DNA of 64,000 nt, from assembly GCA_018971775.1 (NCBI GenBank), contig JAGXAB010000024.1, forward strand, positions 1 to 64,000, written 5' to 3'. The notes beneath the pieces are model-generated. The model ran no database searches. It saw only the letters and a program-made list of their open reading frames with translations, and was not told the DNA's origin. Origin of the DNA: Cyanobacteria bacterium REEB67 (GTDB lineage Bacteria > Cyanobacteriota > Vampirovibrionia > Obscuribacterales > Obscuribacteraceae). A program made the position numbers and the translations under genes. This document shows, one piece after another, positions 24,902 through 64,000 of the stretch; within the stretch, counting starts at the first letter, position 1; every line of letters begins with the position of its first letter.

Positions 24902-25044
24902 ACGTTAACTTTGGAGATTAGGTGCTCGTTTACAGTGGTATCTAATTGCGAGGATCTATTATTAGATGGTGTTCTGGTTCAGGCCTTCAAAAGTGCTCCT
25001 CGACCCTGCTTTACAGCCTGAGGGGAGCGAATATCCGGGTAACA

Positions 25045-28000
25045 ATGGGCGAGTCCGGCCGCATACAACTCCAGATGATGCTGGTGCAACAATCCGGTCA
25101 GGGGGCGCTGCCCCTCAGTATTTTGGCGCCTCAAACTTTTATGCCTTTTATCAGACAGGTGGAGCGCCTCACTGTCGATGAGCGACTCTCGCCGGTAATC
25201 GTCTACTGGAGCCGGAAAAGCGTCTCGCGTCTGCTGCCGCCCGGCCGCGATTACGGCACGCTGGTGCGGGAAAGCACCTTCGTCGGCTATTTCTCCGAAG
25301 AGAGATTGGACCCTCCAGATGAGTGGTGCTTCCTGGTGGAAAGTCCGCAACTGTGTCTGGTCGTCTATGGTCAGCAGGCCGTGGAAGTATCGGAAAGCGA
25401 AAAATATCAATGTACCGGCTCAATGGAACCGGCCATCGTGCGCGAGTCTTTTAATCGTCTGTTGCCGATCTGGCAAACGCTCAATCTGCAAGATTCAAAC
25501 CGGGTCGAAGACTATCGCGTTTCGCTCGGGCCCGGTAGCAGTTCGCCGCATTTTGTGCAGATGTTGAAGTCAGCGTGGCCGGTAGTCAAAGCTCCGATTC
25601 AGCAGCAGGGCTTGCTCTTGCCCGGTGGTGGCGCAGCCGTTATTGGCAACCAGGATAATAGTTACTACAATCAACAAGAAATCAGTGGCCAGCACATGCT
25701 CAAGGCGGCGCTCTCGAGCACCGGTCCAAACAAGATTTCGCCAATTGCTTTCGATGTCGTTGCCGACAGCGCCAATCAGCAGAGTAGTCAGGGCAATCAG
25801 GGCAATCAGGGCAATCAGGCTATTACATCGCCATTCGGCTTGAACGGTGGCGGGACTGGAAGCGCTACCGGAAACGCTACCGGAAACGCTACCGGAAACG
25901 CTGTAGTCGGCGGCGGCTTGCCAGCGATCGGCCCGAACGGTAACGGTAATGGCAGTGGCAATGCCGGTAGTAACGGCAGCGGCGATGGCGGCGCCGGATA
26001 CTACGACCAGTCCGGCAATTTCGTGCCCGGACCGGCAGGCGAGTCGGGCGGTAATCCATCGCCATCGCGGCCCAAATTGCCCCAGCCGTTTGGCGACAAT
26101 CCAATAAGCGGCGGCGGCGCTGGTGCCATTGATGTTACGGGGCCAGGTCAGGGGAGCTTGCCGCTCGGCGGCAACGGCTCCCAGTCCGGACCTGAAGCCG
26201 GTGCTGGTACTGGTTCTGGTACTGGAGCTGTTGCTGGAGGCAACATCAATCCATCTAATGCCAATAGCCAGAGTGGCGGTCAACTCGAACAACCGCGAGC
26301 GGCAGGCGCACCGTTTGGAGCGGGCGATGCCCAGAAGAAAAATGCCACACGCACTAACATGAAGGCCGTGCAGGCTTCTCATTCCCCCGGCCCGAGCGAA
26401 GCAAAAAATCTTATACCGCCGGCGGCGCAGGCGATTATCAGCGATATCATCGGTCAACTGCGCCATTCCAGCGACCTTAATTCGATATTGCAATACGCCA
26501 TCGAAACTCTAAGCAAAGGTCTCGGTGCCGATCGCGGCTTAATTTGGAAAGTCGTCGGCGATCAACTCGCCGTCACTAATGAATTTTCGATAGAGAGCAA
26601 TGCTTGCTTCGTTGACAATCAACTCAATTCCCAGGAGTCGATGTCGATCGTTCTCGAATTTCTTTCTCGCTTCCCCGATGAATCCGGAGCCGGTGTTATC
26701 AGCGTGCCGGACACTTTTCAGGACATCGATTTGCATAAGCAATCGCGCACGCTGTCTTCCTTGCTCGAGCTCGGCGAAGTGCGGGCTCGTTTGATGGTGC
26801 AATTGCGTTCGCGCGGTATTTTTTCCGGCTTTTTGGAATTGCAGCAGTGCGGTAAACCCCGCGAGTGGAGCACTGAAGATGCGGTCATCCTGCAGAAGGT
26901 AGCCGAGATGCTCTCTGTGGTAGTCCAGCAGTCTTTCGACCAATCGAAAATTGAAATGGACGCGCAGGAGATGAAGTTGATCAACGAGATCGCCTCTCTG
27001 TTCCGCGAATCGAAGGGCGAAACGAGTCGCGATTCGCTCGTTAAATCCGTTTTGCTCGTGGCCGACCACATGGGCTTTGTCAAATCGCAAATCTATTTGT
27101 TCAATGCTGACTCCGGTGTGCTCGATCCGCAAATCGGCGATGACGAAGAGTCTGCTGTAGATCTATCGAACAAGGATAATCCCTTCGTGGCTGTTTTCGA
27201 GTCCGGCCGCGGCAAAGTCGTGAATATGGAATACTCGCGCAAGGGCGATCCTTTCTTCAAGCACGATATGGCGCTTGTTTTGCCGCTCATCTCCGAAGGA
27301 ACAAGACTTGGTGTTATCGGCCTCTGGCGCCGTCAACCGAAAAGGCCGCAATTCAGACCTCAGGATAGAGAACTCGGTTTGACTATTGCCGGTCACCTTT
27401 CAAACGTCATTCGTGCTGACCAGGCTGTGCAACAGATACGCGCCGATCAGGCTCGCGAAGCGCTGATCAACAAGGTGTCCGTTGAAATTAAACGATCACT
27501 GAAGGAAGCGGATCAGATTTCCGACACTCTGGTCAAGTCGGTGCGGGAATATTTTGGACTCGATTTGTGCGTCGTCTCTCAGTATGATCAAGAATCAATG
27601 TTGTCCACCAAATGCAAATATACTGGCCTCGAAGAGGAGTTTGCGCCGCCCGGTCCACCGCCGGCGATTAGCGAATTTAACGAAGAGGTGCCGAAGCCGA
27701 TAGCTCAGCGTATCGCCGATCGTATCTATGAAGGTTCTGTCGAACTTCTGCGCGATGGTCAAACGGTTTTTATTCCCTCCGACGAGCTGGAAGATCGCCT
27801 CGGCGACCTCTACAATCAGGAATGGCATAACCGCGCCGTTATCTGTGTTCCTCTTGGTCAGGGCAATAACTTCAAAGCGGTATTGCTGATGGTGGCTCGA
27901 GACCGTAACCGTCCATTCCCCGACAAGGATATGCGCATGGTCATCGACATGGCGGACCGAGTCGGCGTCGTAATCTCACACTCCGAACTTTTTGCCACTG

Positions 28001-29202
28001 TCGAGCGACAGGCGGTCACCGATCCGATGACCGGTCTATTCAACCGACGTTATTTCGAAGAACAGCTGTCGAAGGAAATCGATCGTTTCCAGCGCTTTGG
28101 TCACCCCTTTTCTTTTATCATCGTCGACCTGGACTATCTCAAAAAAATCAACGACACCAAGGGCCACCACGTCGGAGACGCGGCTATTATCCACACCGGC
28201 AACGTTGTCCGACGCAGTGTGCGCGAAATCGATACGGTCGGTAGATTCGGTGGTGAGGAATTTGTCGTACTCCTGCCCGAAACTGATTTGAAGTGGGCCA
28301 AGATGGTAGCCGAGCGAATCTGCGCCGCCTTGCGCGAGAAAGCTGTAGATGGTGCAGGCATCGTCACCGGCTCTGTCGGTGTGGCGACATTCCCGCATGA
28401 CTCGGATCAAAAAGATAGATTGTTCGAGCTTGCGGACCAGGCGTTGTTCCTGGCCAAGCACCGCGGCCGTAACCAGGTCTGTACTGTTACCGAAGATTTG
28501 ATGCCTTCGCTTGCTGACGGCGGCGAAGAGAAGCTGCGTGACGCCATGAAGCAGGACATCCGCATGGGTCCTACTCCGGATATGAACGTGCCGAATGTAG
28601 CGGATGCCATTCCGAGCTTTGATGTGGAATTGATCAAAGAAAAGGGCCTGCTCGGCATGTTGTCTCAGCTTATCAGTGCTGTTGAAGAACGTTCCTGCTA
28701 TAACTCGGATCGTTCATCGCGGGCGTACGGCTATGCCAATCGCATCGCCCAATCGTTGCATCTGACTAAAGACCACACCGAAGTCGTGTCACTGGCGGCG
28801 GTGCTCTGCAACCTCGGCAAAATGGCCGTACCTGAAGAAGTTTTGAAAAAGCCGGATCCCCTTTCCGAAGAGGATCGTGTCTATATCAATCAAGTGCCGC
28901 ATGCTGGCGCAAAATTTCTCGAGCCGGCCAAGACGCTGGGCAAGATCGCCGGCATCGTCGAGGCTTATAAAGAGCATTGGGATGGTAGCGGTTATCCCAA
29001 TGGTTTAAAGGGTGATGTTATCCCCATCGAGGCCCGCATCGTCTCCCTCGTTGACGCGTATACGGCAATGACTAGCGAGCGTCCTTACCGGCAGGCTATC
29101 GACCACGAATTGGCCATGAAGTTAATACAGGAAGGTGCGGGCAAGGAGTGGGATCCTCGCCTGGTGAAGATTTTCCTGGGTTTGCTAAATAAGGAAAAAT
29201 AG
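25045..29202 (+). CDS. Large GAF-GGDEF diguanylate cyclase with degenerate HD-GYP domain
   Basis: The 1385-residue cytoplasmic sensor has an N-terminal domain of about 200 residues (perhaps DICT-like), a Gly/Asn/Ser-rich linker (about 245-430), three GAF-like domains (about 460-630, 640-790, 800-990), a GGDEF domain (about 991-1150) and an HD-GYP-like end (about 1205-1382). The GGDEF active site is intact (RFGGEEF at about 1067) and the inhibitory RxxD site (REID) lies 5 residues before it, so c-di-GMP synthesis with product inhibition is expected. In the HD-GYP part DGSGYP is kept, but the HD pair is CN (1255-1256) and the HHE triad reads YKE, so phosphodiesterase activity is unlikely. The frame opens at TTG 24946; ATG 25045 gives a more plausible N-terminus. 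Confidence 0.88.
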   Translation: MGESGRIQLQMMLVQQSGQGALPLSILAPQTFMPFIRQVERLTVDERLSPVIVYWSRKSVSRLLPPGRDYGTLVRESTFVGYFSEERLDPPDEWCFLVESPQLCLVVYGQQAVEVSESEKYQCTGSMEPAIVRESFNRLLPIWQTLNLQDSNRVEDYRVSLGPGSSSPHFVQMLKSAWPVVKAPIQQQGLLLPGGGAAVIGNQDNSYYNQQEISGQHMLKAALSSTGPNKISPIAFDVVADSANQQSSQGNQGNQGNQAITSPFGLNGGGTGSATGNATGNATGNAVVGGGLPAIGPNGNGNGSGNAGSNGSGDGGAGYYDQSGNFVPGPAGESGGNPSPSRPKLPQPFGDNPISGGGAGAIDVTGPGQGSLPLGGNGSQSGPEAGAGTGSGTGAVAGGNINPSNANSQSGGQLEQPRAAGAPFGAGDAQKKNATRTNMKAVQASHSPGPSEAKNLIPPAAQAIISDIIGQLRHSSDLNSILQYAIETLSKGLGADRGLIWKVVGDQLAVTNEFSIESNACFVDNQLNSQESMSIVLEFLSRFPDESGAGVISVPDTFQDIDLHKQSRTLSSLLELGEVRARLMVQLRSRGIFSGFLELQQCGKPREWSTEDAVILQKVAEMLSVVVQQSFDQSKIEMDAQEMKLINEIASLFRESKGETSRDSLVKSVLLVADHMGFVKSQIYLFNADSGVLDPQIGDDEESAVDLSNKDNPFVAVFESGRGKVVNMEYSRKGDPFFKHDMALVLPLISEGTRLGVIGLWRRQPKRPQFRPQDRELGLTIAGHLSNVIRADQAVQQIRADQAREALINKVSVEIKRSLKEADQISDTLVKSVREYFGLDLCVVSQYDQESMLSTKCKYTGLEEEFAPPGPPPAISEFNEEVPKPIAQRIADRIYEGSVELLRDGQTVFIPSDELEDRLGDLYNQEWHNRAVICVPLGQGNNFKAVLLMVARDRNRPFPDKDMRMVIDMADRVGVVISHSELFATVERQAVTDPMTGLFNRRYFEEQLSKEIDRFQRFGHPFSFIIVDLDYLKKINDTKGHHVGDAAIIHTGNVVRRSVREIDTVGRFGGEEFVVLLPETDLKWAKMVAERICAALREKAVDGAGIVTGSVGVATFPHDSDQKDRLFELADQALFLAKHRGRNQVCTVTEDLMPSLADGGEEKLRDAMKQDIRMGPTPDMNVPNVADAIPSFDVELIKEKGLLGMLSQLISAVEERSCYNSDRSSRAYGYANRIAQSLHLTKDHTEVVSLAAVLCNLGKMAVPEEVLKKPDPLSEEDRVYINQVPHAGAKFLEPAKTLGKIAGIVEAYKEHWDGSGYPNGLKGDVIPIEARIVSLVDAYTAMTSERPYRQAIDHELAMKLIQEGAGKEWDPRLVKIFLGLLNKEK
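25789..25902 (+). repeat. In-frame tandem repeats in the GGDEF protein linker
   Basis: Three 9-bp units CAGGGCAAT (25789-25815; Gln-Gly-Asn) and three 12-bp units ACCGGAAACGCT (25867-25902; Thr-Gly-Asn-Ala). Both unit lengths are multiples of 3, so copy-number change would alter linker length without breaking the frame. Confidence 0.9.
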
Positions 29203-45918: not shown

Positions 45919-47031
45919 TTAGAAGAGTTCGGGGGCAAACTCTTTAATCTGTTGTACGGACATGGCCGCCCCAAACTTATTTAGCTCGGCGCCGCTATCG
46001 GTGAGGGCGCGACGGACGACGAGGCCGAGTACTTTGCCGCGCAGGCTCAATACTGGTCCGCCGGAATTGCCCCTGGTAATCGGCGCGTCGACTTGCACCA
46101 GATGCGGTGTTACTTTGGTGACATGGCCGTTACTAAAAGTCGGTGTAAAATAATCATTGGCTTCATTGTCGATCTGATCCGAGGCGATCGGATAGCCGAT
46201 CACCTGTACTTCCTGGCCTTCGCTCGCTTCGAGGGGATCCAGTTCGAGGGGCGGCGCGGCTGATTTTTCGACGGTCAAAACAGCGATGTCGGGATCGGTG
46301 TCGGGCTTTGTCGCTTTGTAGATCTTCGCCAGGAGGGGCGGCTGATTGACTGAGCCGCAGGCGTGGAGGAAATAACCAACCTGGGTAGTGAGATTGGCTT
46401 GCTTGACGTATTTGTCGAAACGAGCGCGGCTTGGATCGGCGCGATTGGACAAATAGGTGTCGTAGGTGCTCCAGATATTGTCCACTGTGGTTTGATAAGT
46501 AATCAACATCGCTTTGGATCGGTCTTTTCTGGTAGCGATGTTGACGATTTGCAAAAGCTCTCGGAAGCGTTCGTCGACATTATTATTGTTCGCCGTTTGT
46601 TCGGCGTATAGGCGCATCCCGGCATAAAAGCGCTGGAAGGCCGTGACCAGGTCGTCCGTACTGTCAAAGACGTGACGGGCCGTCAAAAAGTATTGCCTGT
46701 CATTGTGCCTGGTTTTTATTGGAAAAGCCGTGGCCATTTGCACGACACGAAAGCCCGGATCGGTGGTCGAGGCACTGAAGACGTACTGGTGCGTGGTCGG
46801 CGAGGCGTCGGCGATCTGGCAATAAATCGAATCTTTTAATTTAAATTTGATGGCCACATTGATCTCAAAGACTTGTGTCTTAAGTTTTTTGTCCAGATGC
46901 TCCCAGGTCTCGACGGCGGCCGCCGACTGAGGCTGCGCCAGCGGCGCGATTAACGCGCCGGCGAGGGCGCTAAGGAGGACTGTGGCAATCGAGGGGGCAG
47001 CCAGGCTTTCGAAAGTTTTTCGATTGAACAT
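45919..47031 (-). CDS. Exported trypsin-like serine protease (S1C/DegP-type core)
   Basis: The catalytic triad can be read as His120 (FLTARHVF), Asp248 (DPDIAVLTV) and Ser323 (ITRGNSGGPVLS), the order and spacing of chymotrypsin-fold proteases. An inserted region of about 85 residues lies between His and Asp. A signal peptide (ATVLLSALAGALIAPLAQPQSAAA) marks it as periplasmic. There is no PDZ domain. The start is ATG 47031 preceded by GAGGGGACC; the frame extends to 47121. It follows the DUF4127 gene by 1 nt, so they are cotranscribed. Confidence 0.85.
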   Translation of the reverse strand: MFNRKTFESLAAPSIATVLLSALAGALIAPLAQPQSAAAVETWEHLDKKLKTQVFEINVAIKFKLKDSIYCQIADASPTTHQYVFSASTTDPGFRVVQMATAFPIKTRHNDRQYFLTARHVFDSTDDLVTAFQRFYAGMRLYAEQTANNNNVDERFRELLQIVNIATRKDRSKAMLITYQTTVDNIWSTYDTYLSNRADPSRARFDKYVKQANLTTQVGYFLHACGSVNQPPLLAKIYKATKPDTDPDIAVLTVEKSAAPPLELDPLEASEGQEVQVIGYPIASDQIDNEANDYFTPTFSNGHVTKVTPHLVQVDAPITRGNSGGPVLSLRGKVLGLVVRRALTDSGAELNKFGAAMSVQQIKEFAPELF

Positions 47032-47032
47032 T

Positions 47033-48700
47033 TCAGGTCCCCTCGAAGCTGATTTCGATTTCGAAGGTGCGCTTCCAGGGAAAGGAAAGGCGCACGCTCG
47101 GCTCCATACCGAGAGCGGCATTGACCTTGGCGATATAAGGACCGATCAGTTCGGCCAGTTTCTGGGTCGAGGGTTCACCCTGCAATAGTTTGCGCACGCA
47201 GGCCTGATAGGCCCAATCATCGACAAGTCGTACGAAAAGACACTGCTTATGCCAATCCAGGCTTTTCTCCGCCTCTTTCGCTTCGCCTTTGCCGGCGGCA
47301 CTGGCGCCCGGTCCGCCAGCGCTTGAGGCGGCGCTGGCTGCGGCAGCACCACTTTCCCTAAACCAGTAGGCGACAGCGATGGCGAGGGCTGAGCCCATGG
47401 TATTGCCGGCGGTGTTCCAGCCGGAGTACGATTTTACTTTGCGCAGCAGATCCGGACGCATGAGCAAGGCCTCGATAAGCTTTGGATCGCCGCCATTTGC
47501 ATAAGCGACATCGGCGATGATAACGCCGGCGCCGGTCGATTTTTCGATCAAAAAAAGAGTCTCGCTCACCGCCTCAGTCGTGTCTATCTGACTCAGATCG
47601 GCGAGGCCGGGCAGGGTAATGTGATCTCCCTGGCGGTCATTTGGGCCGTGAATGATCAAGGTAAAAGTATTGGCCGAGAGTGGCCGATTTTGCGAGGCGT
47701 CGTTATTTTCACTTGGGTGCCCATCACCAGAGGTAGTGGCATCACCGGACTTAAAATGATCGCCCGGCTTGTAGCGCAGAGCGCTGGCGTCGATGTGACT
47801 GGCCACTGTCGTGCCGATGTCCTGTCCTTCGTAGCGGCTGGCGGCCGCCGAGCATCCGCCTGGCGAAAAATAGACGGCTACACCCGGTGCGCGCTTGGCA
47901 GCGGCTTCGGTCCGGCCGCTTCCCTGCCTCAATCCTTCGGCAATGAGCAGGCGCGCCAGAAGTGTCTGCATTACTTCATCGGCTCCGGCATAGACTGAGA
48001 CTTTGTCGGTCAATCCAAGTTGAGCGCTGGTACTGATCAGTCTCTCTTTTTCGCTGACATTGAGGCCATAGGCACCGGAATCGTCCTGCGAAAAAATCAA
48101 ATGGTCGATATAGCCCTCATTCATGCTTTTCAGCAAAGTCATATTGGTCGAAAAATTACGTCTTCTCGTATCGAGATAGTCCTGACGAATGTCAGCGGGG
48201 ATGCGCCGCTCGAGAGACTCGAGCAGGCCAGCGGTGGGTTTTTCGCCGCGGGCGAGGCGGTGCAGGCAGGCCGACCATTCGAATATTTCGCGACCGAAGC
48301 GCGACCAGTATTCTTTCTCTTCCGTGTTGTCGTAATTGTCCGAGATGCGCATGATCGAAGACTGGGCCATAACGACGGGCGGACGCGATGAAAGTGTTTT
48401 CCACTTTTTGACGCGGTCGAGCCGGCTCATGATTGTTTTGAAATCATCCTGGGAGCGCCGGCCCGTGATCAGACCACCATAAAGGAGGCTGTCCAGGCAG
48501 ACGATGACGGCGGCTGGTTCCTGCCTGGCAATAGTTGTTTCGGCAAAGGCGAGCAATTCGTCGATCTGGGCCGGTCTGGTCAGGCTGCCCATCAGGTGTC
48601 GGGGCGGCAAAATCGCTTCGACGCGCGCTGCTCTGGCGACCAGTGCGGGAAACGTAAAAGTGACCGGTCTATCGTCCAGGGGAATAAGCAGTATCTTCAT
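47033..48700 (-). CDS. DUF4127-family protein
   Basis: The 555-residue protein starts MKILLIPLDDRPVTFTFP, the signature of DUF4127. Other conserved-looking blocks are VCLDSLLYGGLITGRR, QSSIMRISDNYDNTEE, FSQDDSGAYGLN and SGWNTAGNTMGSALA. The family has no established activity; the fold resembles metal-dependent or phosphorylase-like enzymes by eye only. There is no signal peptide. It sits between an exported charged protein and a protease on the same strand. A Gly/Ala-rich insert lies near residue 460-480. Confidence 0.82.
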   Translation of the reverse strand: MKILLIPLDDRPVTFTFPALVARAARVEAILPPRHLMGSLTRPAQIDELLAFAETTIARQEPAAVIVCLDSLLYGGLITGRRSQDDFKTIMSRLDRVKKWKTLSSRPPVVMAQSSIMRISDNYDNTEEKEYWSRFGREIFEWSACLHRLARGEKPTAGLLESLERRIPADIRQDYLDTRRRNFSTNMTLLKSMNEGYIDHLIFSQDDSGAYGLNVSEKERLISTSAQLGLTDKVSVYAGADEVMQTLLARLLIAEGLRQGSGRTEAAAKRAPGVAVYFSPGGCSAAASRYEGQDIGTTVASHIDASALRYKPGDHFKSGDATTSGDGHPSENNDASQNRPLSANTFTLIIHGPNDRQGDHITLPGLADLSQIDTTEAVSETLFLIEKSTGAGVIIADVAYANGGDPKLIEALLMRPDLLRKVKSYSGWNTAGNTMGSALAIAVAYWFRESGAAAASAASSAGGPGASAAGKGEAKEAEKSLDWHKQCLFVRLVDDWAYQACVRKLLQGEPSTQKLAELIGPYIAKVNAALGMEPSVRLSFPWKRTFEIEISFEGT

Positions 48701-54120: not shown

Positions 54121-55164
54121 TCAGGGGGCGATTTCCGCGATTTCTCCGCGGCCGGTTTCGACGGCGGCGGTGGCCTGTGGTCTGGCTTCTTGCCTGGCCA
54201 GCCAGGTGTCGATGATTTCGGCTATGGCCGGATCGACTTCGCGATGTTCGAGCAGGAGATGGCCTTTGCCCTGCAATATCGTAAATTGCTTTTGATTGGA
54301 GCCGATGCGTTGCATCAATTTATGCAGAGACTTTGTATCCTGCACCCGGTCCTTGGCGCCGGCAATCATCAAAATCGGCATTGACTGAGGGATTTTTTCT
54401 ACTTCTTTGATGCTGTTTTTATTGGTGATGTTGGCTTTGATCAAATCGGTCGGACTGATCGCCGTTGTTGTTTCGGCATCGTTGACCATCGCTTCGGTGA
54501 CCGAGCGTTTCTCGGTCAAAACAGGCTTCATATATGGTTTCAGGTCGATCGGACGTTTGGGATGCTCCAGGCCTTTGGCGATTGTCACGGCCCAGTGCGC
54601 GCGCGGCATCAGGCGGCGATTTTTATTTGTCATGCCCACCGATATGACACCATCCATCAAAGTCGGCTCGGTGCTTGCTTCCCAGAGAGCCATATTAGCG
54701 CCCAGGCTTTCGCCCAGACAAAATATTTTTTTACCCGGATAAGCCTTGCGCAGCGCCTGTAAAACATGGGTCAGGTCGTCCTTGCTCATACCGTAGTGGA
54801 TGGCCCGATCCTCTCCAAAATCAGCGCTGTTGGTGAGCCAGTCTCCATAACCACGGATGTCGGCTGAATAAACTGTGTAGCCCTGACCAGTGAGGTGACG
54901 GGCGATACCATCATAGGCCCGACCGTTAAAAATCAAGGCCGGTACGGCGACAATAACGCCCTTGTTGACGACGCTTGTATCTTGCCAGGCATGCACCGGA
55001 ATTTTAAGCTGTCGACCGAGCGGGGATTGATTTTGAAATTCAACCGCCGCCAAGACCGGCATGTTCAGGCTATTTAAAAGCGGCAGCGCCGACAGCACCA
55101 TCGCCAGCAGAGCGTTGGGCTGCGATTTCTTGACAGGTGCCGGTCTATTTGCCACTTTTTCCAT
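54121..55164 (-). CDS. Alpha/beta hydrolase, possibly exported
   Basis: The 347-residue protein resembles serine aminopeptidase / lysophospholipase-type hydrolases. The nucleophile elbow is FCLGESLGANMALW, the acid AGAKDRVQDTK and the His GKGHLLLEH. The N-terminus has a hydrophobic segment (NALLAMVLSALPLLNSLNMPVLAA) that may be an export signal. Its 5' end overlaps the MFS gene by 20 nt, so it is coupled to it. The substrate is unknown; a lipid or ester fits the neighbourhood. Confidence 0.8.
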   Translation of the reverse strand: MEKVANRPAPVKKSQPNALLAMVLSALPLLNSLNMPVLAAVEFQNQSPLGRQLKIPVHAWQDTSVVNKGVIVAVPALIFNGRAYDGIARHLTGQGYTVYSADIRGYGDWLTNSADFGEDRAIHYGMSKDDLTHVLQALRKAYPGKKIFCLGESLGANMALWEASTEPTLMDGVISVGMTNKNRRLMPRAHWAVTIAKGLEHPKRPIDLKPYMKPVLTEKRSVTEAMVNDAETTTAISPTDLIKANITNKNSIKEVEKIPQSMPILMIAGAKDRVQDTKSLHKLMQRIGSNQKQFTILQGKGHLLLEHREVDPAIAEIIDTWLARQEARPQATAAVETGRGEIAEIAP

Positions 55165-56629
55165 CCCTTAATGGTACCTCAGGCAAAAACAAATTGAGTA
55201 AAAGAGTAAGTACTATAAATGAGGCATAGATATAGAGCACTTGACTGGTTGCCGTTTGTAGATTGCCCACTTTCAGCAAGCAGAGCATCAGAGCGCTCAT
55301 TAAGCCGGTGCCGATTGTGCCGCCAAGAGAGCGGAAAAATTGGGTCATGGAAGTGGCTACACCCATGATTTCGGACGGGACGATTTTTTGAATGATAATC
55401 GTGTGCACCGGCAGCAGCAGTCCCAGGCCGACGCCACCAAGAGCTGCCGCCGCGAGCAGGGCGCTGAGCGAATTTTCGGCGGAGACCTGATTGAGGCCAG
55501 CCTGTACTGCCTGCACTTGCACGCCGATCAGGGCCGTGCCGAGGGCGAGCAGGGTGAGGCCCGAAAGGATAAGCAATTTGTAGCGGCCGCTTTTGGAGAG
55601 GATCAAACCGCCGGCGATACTCGCGCCGGCCACAACGATCATCAAAGGTGTGAGCGTGACGCCTGTAGCGGTGGCCGAGCGCAGAAGCAGTTGTTGCAGT
55701 ATCGTCGCCAGAAGAAGCATCGAGCCAAACAGGCCGATGCCGGTAATAAAGACCGTAGTAAGCGAAATGGCAATCAGGCGGTCTTTGAATATCGTCAGTG
55801 GTATCAAAGGCTCGATCGCTTTTTCTTCGCAGCGGATAAAGAGGTAGAAAGCCAGCAAAGCGCCACCGAGCTCGACGGCGGCACTAGGACTGAAGTGGCC
55901 CAGTCGACCGATTTCGGCCGCACCTAAAATAACCGGCACGATCGTCAGGACGAAAAAAACAATACCTTTGTAATCGATGATCGCTCTAGCCAGTTTGCGT
56001 GTCGTCAGCGGAAAGGAAAGATAGAGGAAGAGGGCGGCTATAGCGCTGAGCGGGATATTCATATAGAAAACCAGGCGCCATGAGCTTTTGTCGGCGATGA
56101 AACCGCCCAGTACCGGACCGACCAGGGCCGCTACGATAAAGGCCGCGGCAAGGAAACCCTGATACTTGCCTCGTTCGGCCACTGGAAAAACTTCGCCAAT
56201 CGAAACGAAGCACAAGCCAAGCATGGCGCCGCCGGCCAGACCTTGCAGGGCACGAGCGAGAATGAGCTGGTCGATAGCATCGAGACCGAAGAGCACAGGT
56301 ATGGAGCCGGCTGCTCCGCAAAGCGTGGAAGCGGCGGCGAAAAGCAAAATCGCCGCCAGCAATACATTTTTTACACCATAAATGTCTGCCAGTTTACCGG
56401 CCAATGGTGTGGCGATTGTCGAAAAAAGCAGATAGGCGGTGATGATCCAGGCTGACTTATCGACGGCGTTGAGGGCCGCCGCGATTTTCGGTATGGCGAT
56501 ATTCAAAACCGTCTGGTCCAGAGCCGAGAGAAGAATGGCTATTTGCAGGGCGATGCAAACACCAGCGATGTTTTTCTTCGCCGGGGCCAGGCTGTTTTGT
56601 GGCTGTAAATCTAGGCTTTGCTCTGACAA
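55145..56629 (-). CDS. MFS multidrug/lipid exporter (DHA2, EmrB/QacA type)
   Basis: The 494-residue membrane protein has the DHA2-type start with 14 likely membrane helices. Motif C-like sequence (FIVAALVGPVLGGFIAD) marks an antiporter. Motif D1-like SALDQTVLNIAIPKIAAAL and motif A-like AGKLADIYGVKNV are present. Drug, fatty-acid or glycolipid export is typical. The start overlaps the GT4 gene by 19 nt. Confidence 0.9.
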   Translation of the reverse strand: MSEQSLDLQPQNSLAPAKKNIAGVCIALQIAILLSALDQTVLNIAIPKIAAALNAVDKSAWIITAYLLFSTIATPLAGKLADIYGVKNVLLAAILLFAAASTLCGAAGSIPVLFGLDAIDQLILARALQGLAGGAMLGLCFVSIGEVFPVAERGKYQGFLAAAFIVAALVGPVLGGFIADKSSWRLVFYMNIPLSAIAALFLYLSFPLTTRKLARAIIDYKGIVFFVLTIVPVILGAAEIGRLGHFSPSAAVELGGALLAFYLFIRCEEKAIEPLIPLTIFKDRLIAISLTTVFITGIGLFGSMLLLATILQQLLLRSATATGVTLTPLMIVVAGASIAGGLILSKSGRYKLLILSGLTLLALGTALIGVQVQAVQAGLNQVSAENSLSALLAAAALGGVGLGLLLPVHTIIIQKIVPSEIMGVATSMTQFFRSLGGTIGTGLMSALMLCLLKVGNLQTATSQVLYIYASFIVLTLLLNLFLPEVPLRDGKSGK

Positions 56630-57912
56630 AAATTGCCGCTTCCGCTTTGATTGGCCGCCCTTTTCACCATCGCTTCGAATTTGCCAGCCAGGGCTTCAGC
56701 GCTGAAGCGTGTGCTGACATTGTTCTGCAAGATTTTGATGCGGGCCAGGTTGGCCCTGGTATTGCGCCGCATCCAGTTGAGACGATTGGTGAGATTGCCC
56801 GGGGCGCTCAGATCGGTAAGCCAGTATTCATCTTCGATGACGAAGCGTCCGCCGTCATGCGGATGCACGACCACGGGTAGACCGGCCAGCACCGCTTCGA
56901 CGACGGCGTTGCCCAGGTGCTCGCGCAAACTGGGCAGGACAAAAACATCGGCGGCGTGCAAAATTTCACTGACACGCTCTTGGGTGACATTGAGCCACTG
57001 TACGCGATCTCCGAGCAGGCGTCGTCCCTGCTCCTGCAAGCCATCGCTATCCACTTCCGGAGCGCCGCATAAAAGCAATTTGCAATTTGGATCGTCGATT
57101 GCGCCCACTTCGTCGAGGAGATAGTCTATTCGCTTGTGGTATTTATTCCAGGCCGCGACACAAACAATTACCCAATCGCTTTCTTCCAGGCCGAGCGATT
57201 CTCTGGTGCGGGTGCGCTCGCGGGCGGCGTCTTCGATACTGGTGATGGCCGGTGCCGGCACACAATTACTGAGCAATTCCATTTTTTCGAGCGGTATGCC
57301 AAATTGCAAGGCCTCGTCAAAGGCATGATTTTCGATTTGCTGTACCAGATCATAATCTGCATAATTTTGCGGTTTGAGCATGCCGCCATTAGCAAAAATG
57401 ATCTTGAAATTTAGATTGAAAGCCACTCTCGACGCGCGCAGCAAATAGGCGAGCGGAATGTCTTTGGTCCAGATCACGTCAGGCTGGAAAGAGAGTAGCT
57501 CAAAATTGAGAGCCGACCAGAAGCTAATTTGCTCGGCGCCATAGGTCATTTCCCAGCGCTGTTGCTCCTGCATAAAAGGAACATAGTGAAATGGACGGGT
57601 CCACAAGCTATTGCGCGGGAAATTCCAGAGCTGTTTGCCGCCTTCGTGCTTGCCGCCGCAAAATAGTCGGACATCCATGTCCGTATGCTGATCGAGTGCG
57701 TGAAACCAGCGCGCCGTCGAAATTTCAAAGCCGCGGTGAATATTGCCGAGGCCCGAGCTGACCAGGGCAAGTTTGACCGGCTTGACTGGAGCAATCGCTA
57801 CTGCGTTTGCTGCTTCATGCAATTCGGCCGCTTTTTCCACGGCTTTATCTGTGGTGCCGGCAGCAGCGTCAACCAGGTTATTTTCTTCGGAGTGTCGATT
57901 AAATGCTAACAC
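56611..57912 (-). CDS. Glycosyltransferase family 4-like
   Basis: The GT-B-fold protein has 433 residues. An N-terminal Rossmann start KLALVSSGLGNIHRGFEIST is followed by the C-terminal donor-binding motif SLREHLGNAVVEAVLAGLPVVV, with the E(x7)E pattern of retaining GT4 enzymes. Nucleotide-sugar donor and acceptor are unknown. It is 1 nt from the GH3 gene and overlaps the MFS gene, so it belongs to the same operon. Confidence 0.88.
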   Translation of the reverse strand: MLAFNRHSEENNLVDAAAGTTDKAVEKAAELHEAANAVAIAPVKPVKLALVSSGLGNIHRGFEISTARWFHALDQHTDMDVRLFCGGKHEGGKQLWNFPRNSLWTRPFHYVPFMQEQQRWEMTYGAEQISFWSALNFELLSFQPDVIWTKDIPLAYLLRASRVAFNLNFKIIFANGGMLKPQNYADYDLVQQIENHAFDEALQFGIPLEKMELLSNCVPAPAITSIEDAARERTRTRESLGLEESDWVIVCVAAWNKYHKRIDYLLDEVGAIDDPNCKLLLCGAPEVDSDGLQEQGRRLLGDRVQWLNVTQERVSEILHAADVFVLPSLREHLGNAVVEAVLAGLPVVVHPHDGGRFVIEDEYWLTDLSAPGNLTNRLNWMRRNTRANLARIKILQNNVSTRFSAEALAGKFEAMVKRAANQSGSGNFCQSKA

Positions 57913-57913
57913 T

Positions 57914-59653
57914 TCAGATTCCGCTCAGGCTTTGGGACACTTTAGAGAGATGACCGGCAGGCGCATTTAAAAGTTCCGCTTCGAAATATTTGCGCACCTC
58001 GTCTTTCGGATTTAGATGACTGACTTTGATCTGCGCGTCGGCTACGCCCTGGCTTGTCAAAAACTTGCGGAAGTTTTCGTAACTACCCTGGCGGAGATTT
58101 TTCGTTTCTATCTCTCCAAGCCTGAGGGATTGCCTTTTGACTTTGTATTCGCTGTTTTCCCGGGCCAGCTCGTTATCGATCAGTGCTGCAAAATTTGAGG
58201 GACGGGCCGCGCCGGCATAAGCGTCTGTGCCATTATCGACCCGATTATCTGTTTCCAGCCAGACTTCATAATGGGGCTCAGGCCGAAAAACCGGTACGAC
58301 GGTAAAAAAGCGCAATTTGACCGAAGCTTCTCGGGCGACCCGATTGACTGCAGTCGTTACCTGCAATTCGGTGATTTTTTCGCCGGTGAAGGATGAAATG
58401 TTGCCACCCTTATATTGAAATTCGATCAAGGGCGTGGCGTTATAGAAGCCGGTCACCTTCACGACGTCATTGATGTTGTAGCGATACAAGCCACCGGATG
58501 TGGTGAACAAGATAAAGTAATTGGCTCCCTCTTTTAGCTGGTCGGCGAGCAAGACCGTCGGCTTTTCGGCCTGGATTTCGTCTTCGGGGACAAACTCGAA
58601 AAAATGCGACTGGATGGCCAGCACTTGCAGGCCCGGTCCCATGAAGACGGTGCCCCGGCCCTCGCTCGCCCCATAGGTAATATCGCAGACGGGCACATTA
58701 CCGAAATACTGAGGGAAATCAGCGAGATAGAAGGATGCGGCGGCCTTGGTCCAGCATGAAACAACGCTCAGGGTCGGCCAGATTTTGTGCGGCACAAACT
58801 GGCCGCTTCCGAAAAGCTCTCTCAAAAAGGCGGCACGCTCGGGGTTTGCCCGGAGCAAAGGGGTGATGGCGGCGCGAGCCTCCGAGCTCAGTTTGTCGGA
58901 CCGACCGCAGTCGGGCGGGCTGATTATGCCTCCGGCAATATCTTCTATTAATGATGGCGCATACTCTTGCAACCTTCGGCAGAGCAAGCTGATCGTGCTC
59001 GGATTGAGTGTATAGAAGCAGGAAAGCGGCAGTACGAGCGCCAGGCGCAACAATGTGTAATAGCGCGTGTCGTAGTCTTCGATCAAATAAACTTCATAGG
59101 GAATTGGTGAAATGAATTTTTTGATCAAAAAGGGTTCTTTTTGAAAGAGCTGGCCGGAGATTGCTCCGTATGGCGTGCCGCCTTCTGTGCGCCCTTCTTC
59201 CGCCGGCGAAGCAATCGAGAGTGTGACGCCGCCGTCGATTTTGGGAAAGGATTTGAGCAGATGATAGCCGGAGACTACCGAAGCGTGGCGAAACTCTTCC
59301 ATATAGCCGGGAGTAATCGGGATATATTTCGGTTTGCCGCTCGTGCCGCTCGTTGTTGCGTACATGAGCGGTTCGGCTGTGGTCAGGACCTTTTTTTCGC
59401 CGGCCGTAGCGCGCTCGACATAGGGGCGAAAGTCTTCGTATTCGCGGATTGGGACGGCTGCCTGGAAGTCGGCGATTGATTTGATCGAGGCAAAATTATG
59501 ATCACGACCAAAAGAAGAATCGGCATTGGCGGCAATGATCGAGAGCAGCTTGGCCGTTTGCGCAACTCGCGGTTTATGGCTCAGCGCCTTAAACTTGCTG
59601 ATTTTGCCCTCGGCAAGCAGACTGAAGGCTCGGTATAAGGCCTGCCGAAACAA
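57914..59653 (-). CDS. GH3-family acyl-adenylate/amido synthetase-like enzyme
   Basis: The 579-residue protein belongs to the GH3 branch of the ANL superfamily. The phosphate loop is LMYATTSGTSGKPKYIPIT (about residue 100), the second ATP motif is ITYGASEGRGTVFM (about 331) and the third TTSGGLYRYNINDVVKVTGF (about 390). Plant GH3 enzymes join acids to amino acids via AMP esters; bacterial ones are little studied. Here it could activate a fatty or polyketide acid. It leads the leftward operon and is separated from the GT2 gene by 79 nt, divergently. Confidence 0.88.
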   Translation of the reverse strand: MFRQALYRAFSLLAEGKISKFKALSHKPRVAQTAKLLSIIAANADSSFGRDHNFASIKSIADFQAAVPIREYEDFRPYVERATAGEKKVLTTAEPLMYATTSGTSGKPKYIPITPGYMEEFRHASVVSGYHLLKSFPKIDGGVTLSIASPAEEGRTEGGTPYGAISGQLFQKEPFLIKKFISPIPYEVYLIEDYDTRYYTLLRLALVLPLSCFYTLNPSTISLLCRRLQEYAPSLIEDIAGGIISPPDCGRSDKLSSEARAAITPLLRANPERAAFLRELFGSGQFVPHKIWPTLSVVSCWTKAAASFYLADFPQYFGNVPVCDITYGASEGRGTVFMGPGLQVLAIQSHFFEFVPEDEIQAEKPTVLLADQLKEGANYFILFTTSGGLYRYNINDVVKVTGFYNATPLIEFQYKGGNISSFTGEKITELQVTTAVNRVAREASVKLRFFTVVPVFRPEPHYEVWLETDNRVDNGTDAYAGAARPSNFAALIDNELARENSEYKVKRQSLRLGEIETKNLRQGSYENFRKFLTSQGVADAQIKVSHLNPKDEVRKYFEAELLNAPAGHLSKVSQSLSGI

Positions 59654-59732: not shown

Positions 59733-60923
59733 ATGCTCGTAGCCTTCTTTTTACTGGCCATTACGGTGCTGGGTTGCATCGTGCAGACCTTGGCTTTCAA
59801 TCGTCTTATGTCTTATGTGGCCAGCGAAATGGCCAAGCCGCTTGGCAAGTATCTGCCGCCGGTGACGGTGATTTTGCCCTGTAAGGGCCTTGACCCCGGC
59901 TTCAACGACAATGTGCGCAAGTTGCTCAATCAGGACTACCCGTGCTTCGAAGTAATCTTCGCTGTCGCGTCCACCGATGATCCGGCTTATCAAAATTTAG
60001 TAGATCTCGCCGCCGCCTCTTCGTTACCAATAAAGATTGTCGTTGCCGGCATTAACTTAAAACGCGCTCAGAAAATCAATAATCAGTTGAAGGCTCTGGA
60101 AAACCTTTCTCCCGAGTCCGAGGTAATTGTTTTTGTCGACTCGGACGTGATCGCCCGTGCCGATTTCTTGCGTCACCTCGTGGCGCCCCTCGAGGGCGAG
60201 CGTGTCGGCGTCTGCACTGGATATCGTTTTTATATAGCGTCGCTCTCCAACTGGCCCTCCCAGCTGCGCTCTCTCTGGAATCGCATGTCCGCCTGGGAAA
60301 TGGCCAACCAGAAATATGCTTTCGCCTGGGGCGGCGCCATGGCCATACGCAAAACGGTTTTTGAAAAGGCGGGTGTGGCGGCGCATTGGGACCAGGCCGC
60401 CGATGATGATCTCTCTTTGACTACCGCGGTAAAAGAGCTCGGCCTCGACGTTCATTTCGTGCCCCAGTGCCTGGTAGCGACCGATGGAGACTCGAGTGTG
60501 GCGGAGATTTTCGAGTGGACTAATCGTCAACTGATTCTCACCAAGGTCTACTATCCAAAACTCTGGGGCCGCGCCGTTGGCCGCGCTGTGGTCATGGCAG
60601 TCTGGTTGATTGCCATGATTGGCGCCCTCGGCGGTTGGCTGCTGTTTGGCGATCGGTCGATGGGCATGGCCGTTTTTGCCGGTCTCACCCTGATCCCCTT
60701 AGAGGTTATTTTTTTAATCCGGGCGCGAAGACTCTGGCAGCAGGTGCTCACTGATAACAGTCAATATATTCAGGAGTCATTTCTTACCTCCTGTGCGGCT
60801 ATCCCCCTCGCTCATCTCATTTTGCCTTGGATAACTTTGTTTTCGCTGTTAACCAATCGTATCCAATGGCGGGGCATTACTTACGAATTGCGCAGCCCGA
60901 CTGAGACGTTAATTATTTCTTGA
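59733..60923 (+). CDS. Membrane glycosyltransferase family 2/21 (ceramide-glucosyltransferase-like)
   Basis: A membrane helix (LVAFFLLAITVLGCIVQTL) precedes the GT-A domain: VTVILPCKGLDPGFNDNV, FVDSDVIARADFLRHL (DxD-like), WGGAMAIRKTVFEKAG and QAADDDLSLTTAVKE (D3). Two or three C-terminal membrane helices follow. This layout is that of GT21/HpnI-type enzymes that glycosylate lipids such as ceramide or bacteriohopanetetrol. The (Q/R)xxRW motif is not clear; NRQLILTKVY stands at its place. ATG 59733 or TTG 59724 is the start. The megasynthase gene follows on the same strand. Confidence 0.88.
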   Translation: MLVAFFLLAITVLGCIVQTLAFNRLMSYVASEMAKPLGKYLPPVTVILPCKGLDPGFNDNVRKLLNQDYPCFEVIFAVASTDDPAYQNLVDLAAASSLPIKIVVAGINLKRAQKINNQLKALENLSPESEVIVFVDSDVIARADFLRHLVAPLEGERVGVCTGYRFYIASLSNWPSQLRSLWNRMSAWEMANQKYAFAWGGAMAIRKTVFEKAGVAAHWDQAADDDLSLTTAVKELGLDVHFVPQCLVATDGDSSVAEIFEWTNRQLILTKVYYPKLWGRAVGRAVVMAVWLIAMIGALGGWLLFGDRSMGMAVFAGLTLIPLEVIFLIRARRLWQQVLTDNSQYIQESFLTSCAAIPLAHLILPWITLFSLLTNRIQWRGITYELRSPTETLIIS

Positions 60924-61111
60924 ATGCTCAAACTGGCCGCAGGTAAGCATCGGCACATTTTCTTCACATTTCTTCGCAACGGCGGCTGGCGTATCGTCTT
61001 ATAATTTGGCATATAAAATAAGCTGTCGAGTTTCTGTCGGCACGTATGGTGAGTCCAATTCCCGGTTGTGACTGGGTGGTTAGACAAGGTGTCGTTTGGT
61101 CTGAGGTAGAT

Positions 61112-64000
61112 GTGTCGGCTCTCAAAGTATTAGTTGTTTCCCCCGCCGGTCCCCGTGGGGACTTTAGAGATCCGGCAATGGCGATTGCGGCGGCCCGCTC
61201 TGGAGCCGTTGGCCTCCTCGATTGTGAGTTTGTCGAAGCCGAAACGTCCCTGGTCAGTCTGTACGAAAAATTGGTCAAGCACGCCAGAGGCGGTGCTGTT
61301 GGTTTCCGGGCCCGCAGCGGCCAGGTGCCGAGCGCAATTTTCGCTCACGGGCAGAGCTCAGGTTCGCTGAACAAAACGGGAAGCGGAGAGCGCTACATCG
61401 TCCTCACCGCCGGTTTGAGAGCTTTCGAAGCGGAAGCGTTAAAAGCAGACATCGATGTCGCGCGCGCTGCCGGTTATATAGTCATCGTCGAAACAATCGA
61501 TCTGAAAGAAGCACAGCTGGCCCAGTCGCTTGGTTGTGATGCCGTTATTGCCAAGGGGCATGAAGGCGCCGGTCGCGTCGGCGATGGCACTACCTTTGTC
61601 CTGGTGCAGCAATATATGCGCCAGTTGGAAATTTCGGTCTTCGCCCAGGGGGGTATCGGTTTGCATTCGGCCGCCGCAGTCGCCGCCGCCGGTGTGACCG
61701 GTATCGTCCTCGACAGTCAGCTCTATCTCTGTCGCGATTCAGGCGTCAGCCCGCAGCTGCGTTTGCGCATCGAGCGCATGGACGGCAGCGAAACGACGCT
61801 CGTCCGCGGTCCTCAGGGGCAGACCTATCGCCTCGCCGCTCCGGTCGGCACAGCCGATCTCAGTCTGGCCGCCGAACACAAATTCGAAGAGGCTCTGATC
61901 GAGAAGCTCGTCGGCAGTGAAAATTCTGCAGATTATCTCGTTGTTGGACAGGATGCTTCTTTCGGTCGACTATTGGCCACAGTTGGTGGCACCATATCCG
62001 GTGCTATCGAAGCGATTCAAAATGCCGTTCCCGAACAACTGGCCATCGCCACTCGCGCCGCTGCTCTTGCCGAAGGAGCGCCGCTTGCAGTCTCGCATGG
62101 CACGCGTTATCCTCTCGTTCAAGGTGCCATGACCCGCGTCTCCGATACCAGTGACTTTGCTCAGAAAGTCGCCGAGGGCGGCGCCCTGCCTTTCCTCGCC
62201 CTGTCGCTTCTGCGCGGACCGGATATCGAAGTATTGTTGCGCGAAACACAGGAAAAACTTGGTGCACTGCCCTGGGGCGTCGGCATGCTCGGTTTTGTAC
62301 CGCAGGCTTTGCGTCAGGAGCAGTTGGAAGTCGTCAATCGCTTCAAGCCTCCTTTTGCCATGATCGCCGGTGGTCGCCCGGATCAGGCTAGAGCTCTCGA
62401 AGATCTCGGCACTCCCACTTATCTGCATGTACCTTCGCCGCTCTTGCTCAAGTCTTTTATCGAGATGGGCTCGCGTCGTTTCATATTTGAAGGCAAAGAA
62501 TGCGGTGGTCACGTTGGTCCTCGGTCGAGTTTTATCTTGTGGCAGTCAATGGTCGAAGTCTTGCTCGACACAATAGGCCCGCGCGATGATGTCTCGGGCT
62601 ATCACATCATTTTTGCCGGCGGCATTCACGATGCTCTCTCCGCTGCCATGGTGGCTACTCTCGCGGCCCCCCTCTCGGCTCGCGGCATCAAGGTCGGATT
62701 TTTGATCGGCACCGCCTATCTCTTCACCGAAGAAGCGGTGACGAGTGGTGCTATTGTCGACAAATTTCAGCAAGCCGCTCTTGCTTGCGATCAGACGATA
62801 CTTCTAGAAACCGGTCCCGGACATTCGATCCGCTGCATTGATTCACCATATAAGCAGTCCTTCAACGAGCTGCGCAGCAAGCTGGAAAAAGAAGAGAAAA
62901 GTCGCGACGATATCCGCGAAGAACTCGAGCTATTAAATCTCGGTCGACTGCGCATCGCCAGCAAAGGACTGGGTAAAGTCCAGGGTGGATCCGGTCTTGT
63001 CTCTTTGCCGCACGAGCAGCAGTGGCAGGAAGGCATGTACATGATCGGCCAGGTGGCTGCCATGCACAATGAAGTAACGACTATCGCCGCCCTGCACGAA
63101 GACGTCTGTGCCACCGGTCAAGATCTGCTCGTCCGCAGGGATCTCGAACAATCATTTGAAAAAGTCTCTCCCGACCGCGTCAACGAAGGCATCGCCATCG
63201 TCGGCATGTCCTGCCAGTTTCCTAAAGGCAACGATGTAGAGACCTACTGGAACAATATTCTCGGCAAGGTCAATACGATCGAAGAAATACCCGCCAGTCA
63301 TTTCGATTGGCGCAACTACTACGATCCGGATTTAATGGCCCGCGACAAAATCGTCTCGAAATGGGGCGGCTTCCTCAAAGACGTTGTTTTCGACCCGAGC
63401 GTTTACGGCATTCCTCCGAGCAGCCTCGACAGTATCGATCCGATGCAGTTCTTGATCCTCGAAGCTTCGCGCCGAGCGCTGGTCGACGCTGGTTACGGTC
63501 AAAGACCCTTCAGCCGCGCCAAGACATCGGTCATTCTGGCCAATGCCGGTCACGGTCCGATTACTGCTCTATACTCTCTGCGTTCGATGCTCGGGTGGAA
63601 GCTGGAGAGTCTTGATCCGGCCGTCACCGAAGAAATCAAATCAGACATACCGGAATGGACGGAAGATTCTTTTGCCGGCTATCTCGGTAACGTCGCCGCC
63701 GGTCGCGTCACCAACAGGCTGGATTTGAAAGGGATCAACTTTTCTATTGACGCTGCCTGCGCCAGTTCCCTCGCCGCACTCTATGTGGGCATTTCAGATT
63801 TGCGCTCCGGGGCCAGCGATGTCGTTTTGCTCGGTGCCACCGATACCCATAACCAGCCGGGCGACTTCCTCAGCTTCAGCAAAACCTATGCTCTTTCGCC
63901 GACCGGCGCTTGCAAAACATTCGACGCCAAAGCCGATGGTATTGCCATCAGTGAAGGTATCGCCGTGCTCGTCCTCAAACGACTGAGCGATGCCGAGCGC
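61112..64000 (+). CDS. Megasynthase: two nitronate-monooxygenase-like domains + ketosynthase (3' end outside window)
   Basis: 963 codons are open to the window end. Residues about 1-270 are a first TIM-barrel flavin domain (LTAGLRAF, KGHEGAGRVGD, FAQGGIGLHSAAA). Residues about 330-600 are a second, canonical one (YPLVQGAMTRVSD, GKECGGHVGPRSS, IIFAGGIHDALSA, FLIGTAYLF), like the PfaD enoyl reductase of polyunsaturated-fatty-acid synthases. From about 690 a type I ketosynthase begins (IAIVGMSCQFPKGND) with the active-site Cys883 in DAACASSLAAL. The rest (remaining KS, perhaps AT, ACP, KR, DH) lies outside. Start GTG 61112 has GAGGT 5 nt upstream; ATG 61046 is in frame but lacks a site. It follows the GT2 gene by 188 nt. 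Confidence 0.92.
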   Translation, partial: MSALKVLVVSPAGPRGDFRDPAMAIAAARSGAVGLLDCEFVEAETSLVSLYEKLVKHARGGAVGFRARSGQVPSAIFAHGQSSGSLNKTGSGERYIVLTAGLRAFEAEALKADIDVARAAGYIVIVETIDLKEAQLAQSLGCDAVIAKGHEGAGRVGDGTTFVLVQQYMRQLEISVFAQGGIGLHSAAAVAAAGVTGIVLDSQLYLCRDSGVSPQLRLRIERMDGSETTLVRGPQGQTYRLAAPVGTADLSLAAEHKFEEALIEKLVGSENSADYLVVGQDASFGRLLATVGGTISGAIEAIQNAVPEQLAIATRAAALAEGAPLAVSHGTRYPLVQGAMTRVSDTSDFAQKVAEGGALPFLALSLLRGPDIEVLLRETQEKLGALPWGVGMLGFVPQALRQEQLEVVNRFKPPFAMIAGGRPDQARALEDLGTPTYLHVPSPLLLKSFIEMGSRRFIFEGKECGGHVGPRSSFILWQSMVEVLLDTIGPRDDVSGYHIIFAGGIHDALSAAMVATLAAPLSARGIKVGFLIGTAYLFTEEAVTSGAIVDKFQQAALACDQTILLETGPGHSIRCIDSPYKQSFNELRSKLEKEEKSRDDIREELELLNLGRLRIASKGLGKVQGGSGLVSLPHEQQWQEGMYMIGQVAAMHNEVTTIAALHEDVCATGQDLLVRRDLEQSFEKVSPDRVNEGIAIVGMSCQFPKGNDVETYWNNILGKVNTIEEIPASHFDWRNYYDPDLMARDKIVSKWGGFLKDVVFDPSVYGIPPSSLDSIDPMQFLILEASRRALVDAGYGQRPFSRAKTSVILANAGHGPITALYSLRSMLGWKLESLDPAVTEEIKSDIPEWTEDSFAGYLGNVAAGRVTNRLDLKGINFSIDAACASSLAALYVGISDLRSGASDVVLLGATDTHNQPGDFLSFSKTYALSPTGACKTFDAKADGIAISEGIAVLVLKRLSDAER

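Follow-up and report, generated by a model that had tools for sequence, protein, structure and literature searches.

A probable ArsA/PfaA-like lipid synthase with two FabK-like barrels ahead of its ketosynthase in an Obscuribacterales-like genome

The closest described systems to the locus reported here include the Type P synthases of Shulse and Allen, a group that pairs Beijerinckia indica with Azotobacter vinelandii and is associated with the alkyl chains of phenolic lipids, such as C22 behenic acid (PMC3098273). ArsA of Azotobacter is the characterised Type P synthase (alkyl chains of C22-C26); it is a fatty acid synthase that supplies long chains to ArsB/ArsC (PMC4824345). Synthases with fused reductases have also been reported: a fused pfaD-pfaA gene (pfaDA) with a pfaBC-PPTase partner is described for Aquimarina and Flavobacterium and is likened there to Renibacterium (PMC13291983), and the enoyl reductases (ERs) of thraustochytrids are fused as well (PMC13311796). 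The original prediction for this DNA assumed that the enoyl reductase (PfaD) is a separate protein in known Pfa-type synthases, which these two reports contradict.

We analysed a window made up of the first 64,000 bases of contig C85, which is 76270 bases long and comes from a draft genome of 6.7 Mb. At its right end lies the 5' part of a type I, ArsA/PfaA-like synthase gene (61046..64000, + strand), with a frame that stays open as far as the window reaches. The nearest named relatives of this gene are in Obscuribacterales/Melainabacteria genomes, which places the host very probably among non-photosynthetic, Obscuribacterales-like cyanobacteria. Following the contig downstream, we were able to recover the entire gene (61046-70072, without internal stop), which encodes a protein of 3008 aa (protein 1); neither a stop nor a frameshift, the events that the original prediction had named as telling against it, is present just past position 64000, and a gene ending there is ruled out by the unbroken frame to 70072. 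A second gene (70069-75045, past the window edge, protein 2 of 1658 aa) starts 4 bases inside the end of the first.

Domain annotation with Pfam, which had been proposed as a check, gives the order barrel 1-barrel 2-KS-AT-ACP-KR-DH for protein 1, with a single ACP, and KS-AT-DH-PPTase for protein 2, so that there are two DH domains, one per protein. In protein 1, the KS spans residues 714-1108, the AT 1308-1650, the ACP 1983-2025, the KR 2371-2594 and the DH 2711-2982. Only the N-terminal part of the KS falls in the window (63185..64000, + strand; assigned by Pfam, motifs and tree), including the active Cys (residue 905, in the motif DAACAS that begins at 902), and the remainder lies past its edge. 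As predicted, two nitronate-monooxygenase-like barrels precede the ketosynthase in one polypeptide (the Pfam NMO matches and the KS share one frame), and the motifs KGHEGAG, FAQGGIG and GGHVGPRSS are all found in the sequence. The KS motifs are intact (DAACAS/EAHGTGT/IGH, i.e. the Cys and both His regions), as are those of the ATs of the two proteins (GHSYGE and GCSTGE), the ACP (DMGIDSI), the KR (YVSAN), the DH (HKFDGIPVMP) and the PPTase (GIDAE and WSAKEA). The KS of protein 2 has its active-site Cys and is therefore not a Cys-less chain-length factor. With these domains in place, we consider it quite probable that the window covers the first (N-terminal) third of a type I fatty-acid/polyketide synthase that works iteratively and is of the ArsA/PfaA ('secondary lipid synthase') kind, that the two overlapping genes form the complete line, and that it makes a long, mainly saturated acyl chain.

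The generic KS-AT-ACP-KR-DH order, and the fact that modular polyketide synthase (PKS) structures are also matched by the KS, would suit a fragment of an ordinary modular PKS that carries unrelated flavin domains. We regard this as highly improbable. A tree built from 66 KS domains places the window KS inside a clade of tandem-barrel synthases together with those of Beijerinckia, Methylosinus and Streptomyces (97/96), and the KSs of modular PKSs branch off on their own (99/96); the identity of the window KS is ~53% to ArsA-like KSs versus about 40% or less to modular ones. Tandem-barrel KSs are joined, weakly (81/68), with PfaA-like KSs (some from plasmids, others from cyanobacterial clusters that have PfaD), and the KS of protein 2 clusters with the second KSs of other loci of this kind (99/99). 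The proposed KS placement among lipid synthases and modular PKSs thus points to a KS of the secondary-lipid (PfaA/ArsA) kind. The two-gene layout, which is kept across phyla, and the plainly FabK-like barrels also speak against a modular PKS, and the tree and the layout together refute it.

The resemblance of the barrels to FabK is seen in both fold and sequence. AlphaFold2, run with 66 aligned sequences, predicts two barrels (pLDDT 89, pTM 0.92), and the nearest solved folds in Foldseek are FabK-type enzymes (E 1e-18 to 1e-17), with PfaD far weaker (8.9e-8); the nearest solved proteins by sequence are FabK too. The expectation that the barrels are related to enoyl reductases is therefore upheld, with FabK-type enzymes as the closest relatives. 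The barrels share the fold of the FabK/nitronate monooxygenase family (PF03060), and barrel 2 shares its His, Met and FMN-phosphate motifs; in contrast to that family, however, they sit inside a megasynthase and fall well short of the NCBIfam FabK equivalog (TIGR03151; 41.5 and 66.2 bits against a cut-off of 453.1). An identification of the barrels as PfaD was ruled out: with a threshold of E<=0.001, the PfaD model (TIGR02814) matches neither of them, nor any other sequence of the genome, and the PfaD structure is a weak fold match.

Barrel 2 (residues ~346-700; 62081..63145, + strand) is annotated as an FMN enoyl reductase domain from its Pfam NMO match (E=3.6e-11 with the N-terminal half scanned alone), its FabK fold and column counts. 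Using the FMN and catalytic residues of thraustochytrid ER domains and FabK as a guide (PMC13311796), we found the motif-I Met (QGAM, M362) and the catalytic His (EGKECGGH, H489) in 66/66 aligned sequences, and the FMN-phosphate glycines G525-G526 (AGG) and G555-T556 (GT) in 64-66 of the 66. The description of this barrel as canonical (GGHVGPRSS) agrees with these counts, and barrel 2 looks catalytic, the sole predicted active reductase of the pair.

Barrel 1 (residues ~24-268; 61115..61849, + strand) matches Pfam NMO equally clearly (E=1.2e-11, N-terminal half scanned alone) and has a FabK-like fold, and its KGHEGAGR motif aligns with EGMESGGH of FabK. It is the shorter barrel and keeps KGHEGAG and FAQGGIG, as had been noted. 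When its residues are compared with those of thraustochytrid ER domains and FabK, the motif-I Met is absent and the catalytic His is found in 0/66 sequences, the position being occupied by Arg (40, R177 here), Trp (10) and others; at the phosphate site, Gly-Thr is replaced by Asp-x (D223 in 64/66). K170, G171, E173, G202-G203, D223 and Q225 are near-invariant across phyla. Barrel 1 evolves faster than barrel 2 (mean identity 41% versus 62%), and in a barrel tree the members of each type group together across phyla (N1 100/99, N2 80/82); we read nothing into the deep relations of N1, N2, PfaD and NMO in this tree, where the branches are long and one of the NMO rows is probably in the wrong frame. 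The separate cross-phylum groups suggest that the pairing of the barrels predates the spread of the synthase family and disfavour barrel 1 as a recent duplicate of barrel 2. Of the earlier suggestion that barrel 1 is a degenerate or regulatory copy, the missing catalytic residues stand, but the image of a decaying copy does not: the loss of the His in all 66 sequences, with its own invariant residues kept, points to an ancient, altered and separately conserved companion. Its probable role is structural or in docking to barrel 2, by analogy with the dimers formed by FabK/PfaD-type enzymes.

The near-invariant residue set, the separate clade and the retention of the glycine pair that holds the FMN phosphate could also be read as signs that barrels 1 and 2 are each functional as oxidoreductases and act on different substrates (e.g. 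barrel 1 as an isomerase or acting on another oxidation state), which would add a redox step per cycle. We think this unlikely, given the absence of the catalytic His and the motif-I Met from barrel 1, the altered second FMN-phosphate site and the faster evolution of this barrel.

Searching 84,980 species genomes with patterns placed within barrel 2, we found at least 446 relatives. Among the best 80 of these, a choice that favours full-length matches, 80/80 have barrel 1 followed by barrel 2 and then a KS wherever the contig extends that far, an arrangement that is far beyond chance; they come from Cyanobacteriota, Planctomycetota, Acidobacteriota, Chloroflexota, Actinomycetota, Pseudomonadota and others. 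Of 40 host-kin genomes searched, 22 have a match. The number of ACPs varies, some relatives having 2-5 (those of Solimonas, Panacagrimonas and Bryobacterales 4-5 in tandem) versus one here. A separate search recovered a homologue on a named plasmid record of Beijerinckia indica, 43.5% identical over residues 42-697 in one piece that spans both barrels. The tandem-barrel fusion, presented originally as unusual, is instead general to a synthase family of many phyla; the find is real yet mostly ordinary, and the tandem barrels are a shared ancient feature of this family.

In the homologue of Beijerinckia indica (BIND_RS19780, Type P), two barrels that bear the signature seen here (KGHEAGGQVG; ECGGHTGPR) stand before a KS of the same clade; the gene belongs to a phenolic-lipid ('Type P') operon, in which two type III PKSs and a PPTase gene come after it. 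A PPTase encoded just downstream is a further likeness to ArsA/Type P loci. Two points count against an ArsA-like reading of our locus: no type III PKS (ArsB/ArsC) adjoins the synthase on the contig as it does in ars loci, GH3 and GT21-like genes being its neighbours instead, and protein 2 (1658 aa) carries an extra intact KS and DH, whereas the B. indica locus has a short ArsD-like PPTase protein of 629 aa. The only type III PKS that we found in the genome (contig C114, 109266-109700) is distant from the synthase and ~26% identical to those of B. indica, and a phenolic-lipid product made through such an enzyme was rejected. As far as the published descriptions of Type M, the type of Renibacterium, go (fused pfaDA plus pfaBC-PPTase; PMC13291983, PMC3098273), the gene layout agrees with that type by text rather than by sequence comparison, with a reductase fused before the KS and a second protein that contains AT, DH and a C-terminal PPTase.

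Protein 1 also resembles PfaA-PfaD of marine polyunsaturated fatty acid (PUFA) synthases and thraustochytrid ERb/ERc in its KS-AT-ACP-KR order and FMN TIM-barrel reductase (both ERb and ERc keep the His that barrel 1 lacks; PMC13311796), and it passes the NCBIfam PfaA subfamily model (TIGR02813; 1113.1 bits versus a cut-off of 1010.1). Together with the PfaA-like neighbours of its KS and the DH on each protein, this would be compatible with a PUFA synthase in which the KS and DH of protein 2 behave like those of PfaC: the two DH domains, if isomerising in that way, could leave double bonds, barrel 2 would reduce only the others, and a PUFA or polyene lipid would result. We give this reading a low probability. 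Unlike PfaA-PfaD, the locus has FabK/NMO-like barrels in a genome without a PfaD match, and the tandem ACPs expected of a PUFA (Pfa) synthase are absent from protein 1, which has one ACP only; protein 2 has one intact KS rather than a KS-CLF pair. In addition, the nearest characterised lineage (Type P/ArsA) yields saturated long alkyl chains (PMC3098273, PMC4824345). The evidence speaks for a saturated acyl product of very long chain rather than a polyunsaturated one: the reducing set is complete and includes one predicted active reductase, and ArsA offers an analogy. The unusual polyunsaturated or reduced polyketide lipid first proposed is thus partly retained, a fully reduced long chain being the likelier outcome and a polyunsaturated one the less likely.

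We also looked at the genes next to the synthase (all annotated by Pfam). A GT2/GT21-like (ceramide glucosyltransferase-like) glycosyltransferase gene (59733..60923, + strand) ends 122 bases upstream and is found beside the synthase in 22 relatives' loci, and a divergent gene for a GH3-family acyl-adenylate (amide-forming) synthetase (57914..59653, - strand) in 20. These loci are the ones closest to that of the window and are mostly labelled Obscuribacterales/Melainabacteria, with a few labelled otherwise; no GH3 or GT21-like homologues were seen beside the synthase in more distant loci of other phyla. A group 1 (GT4-type) glycosyltransferase (56611..57912, - strand) and an MFS transporter (55145..56629, - strand) are near the synthase in closer relatives only, and an alpha/beta hydrolase (S33-like; 54121..55164, - strand) is near it in two close relatives, its link to the synthase being uncertain. 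Because the genome also encodes FabZ of FAS II at another site, the synthase is probably an accessory to that system. Other genes in the window include one for a DUF4127 protein (PF13552, E=2.8e-107; 47033-48700, - strand), which adjoins a trypsin-like protease gene (45919-47121), and one for a large signalling protein that combines GAF domains, GGDEF and, at its C-terminus, an HD domain (PF13487) in one chain (24946-29202, + strand).

In the mechanism that we propose for a saturated product, the single ACP would be armed by the PPTase of protein 2, malonyl units would be loaded by the AT, and the chain would be elongated by the KS, with full reduction of the beta-carbon by KR, DH and barrel 2 (FMN, NAD(P)H) cycle after cycle and with barrel 1 presumably serving barrel 2 as its structural or docking partner. 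At the end, the ACP would carry a long acyl chain that is mainly saturated; no releasing thioesterase was seen. The presence of the GH3 and GT21-like genes beside the synthase, a conserved neighbourhood, suggests that the chain is probably handed over to the acyl-amide synthetase and the glycosyltransferase to give a glycolipid, and the three together possibly represent an undescribed glycolipid gene set; we found no relevant paper on this gene set in Melainabacteria. More tentatively, barrel 1 may be a pseudo-reductase conserved for its re-purposed active site, in which Lys/Arg/Asp stand where the usual residues would be; paired with barrel 2 as an in-chain pseudo-heterodimer, it would steer the ACP or the chain length, and the Obscuribacterales synthase with its GH3 and GT21-like enzymes may make an undescribed amide-linked glycolipid.

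Reductase-fused, ArsA-like long-chain lipid synthases are spread over many phyla, mostly without a known product, and a catalytically altered barrel is retained in all members examined; this His-less first barrel is the least explained point of the family. For non-photosynthetic cyanobacteria, the specific conserved set of synthase pair, GH3 and GT21-like genes points to a probably glycosylated long-chain lipid to look for.
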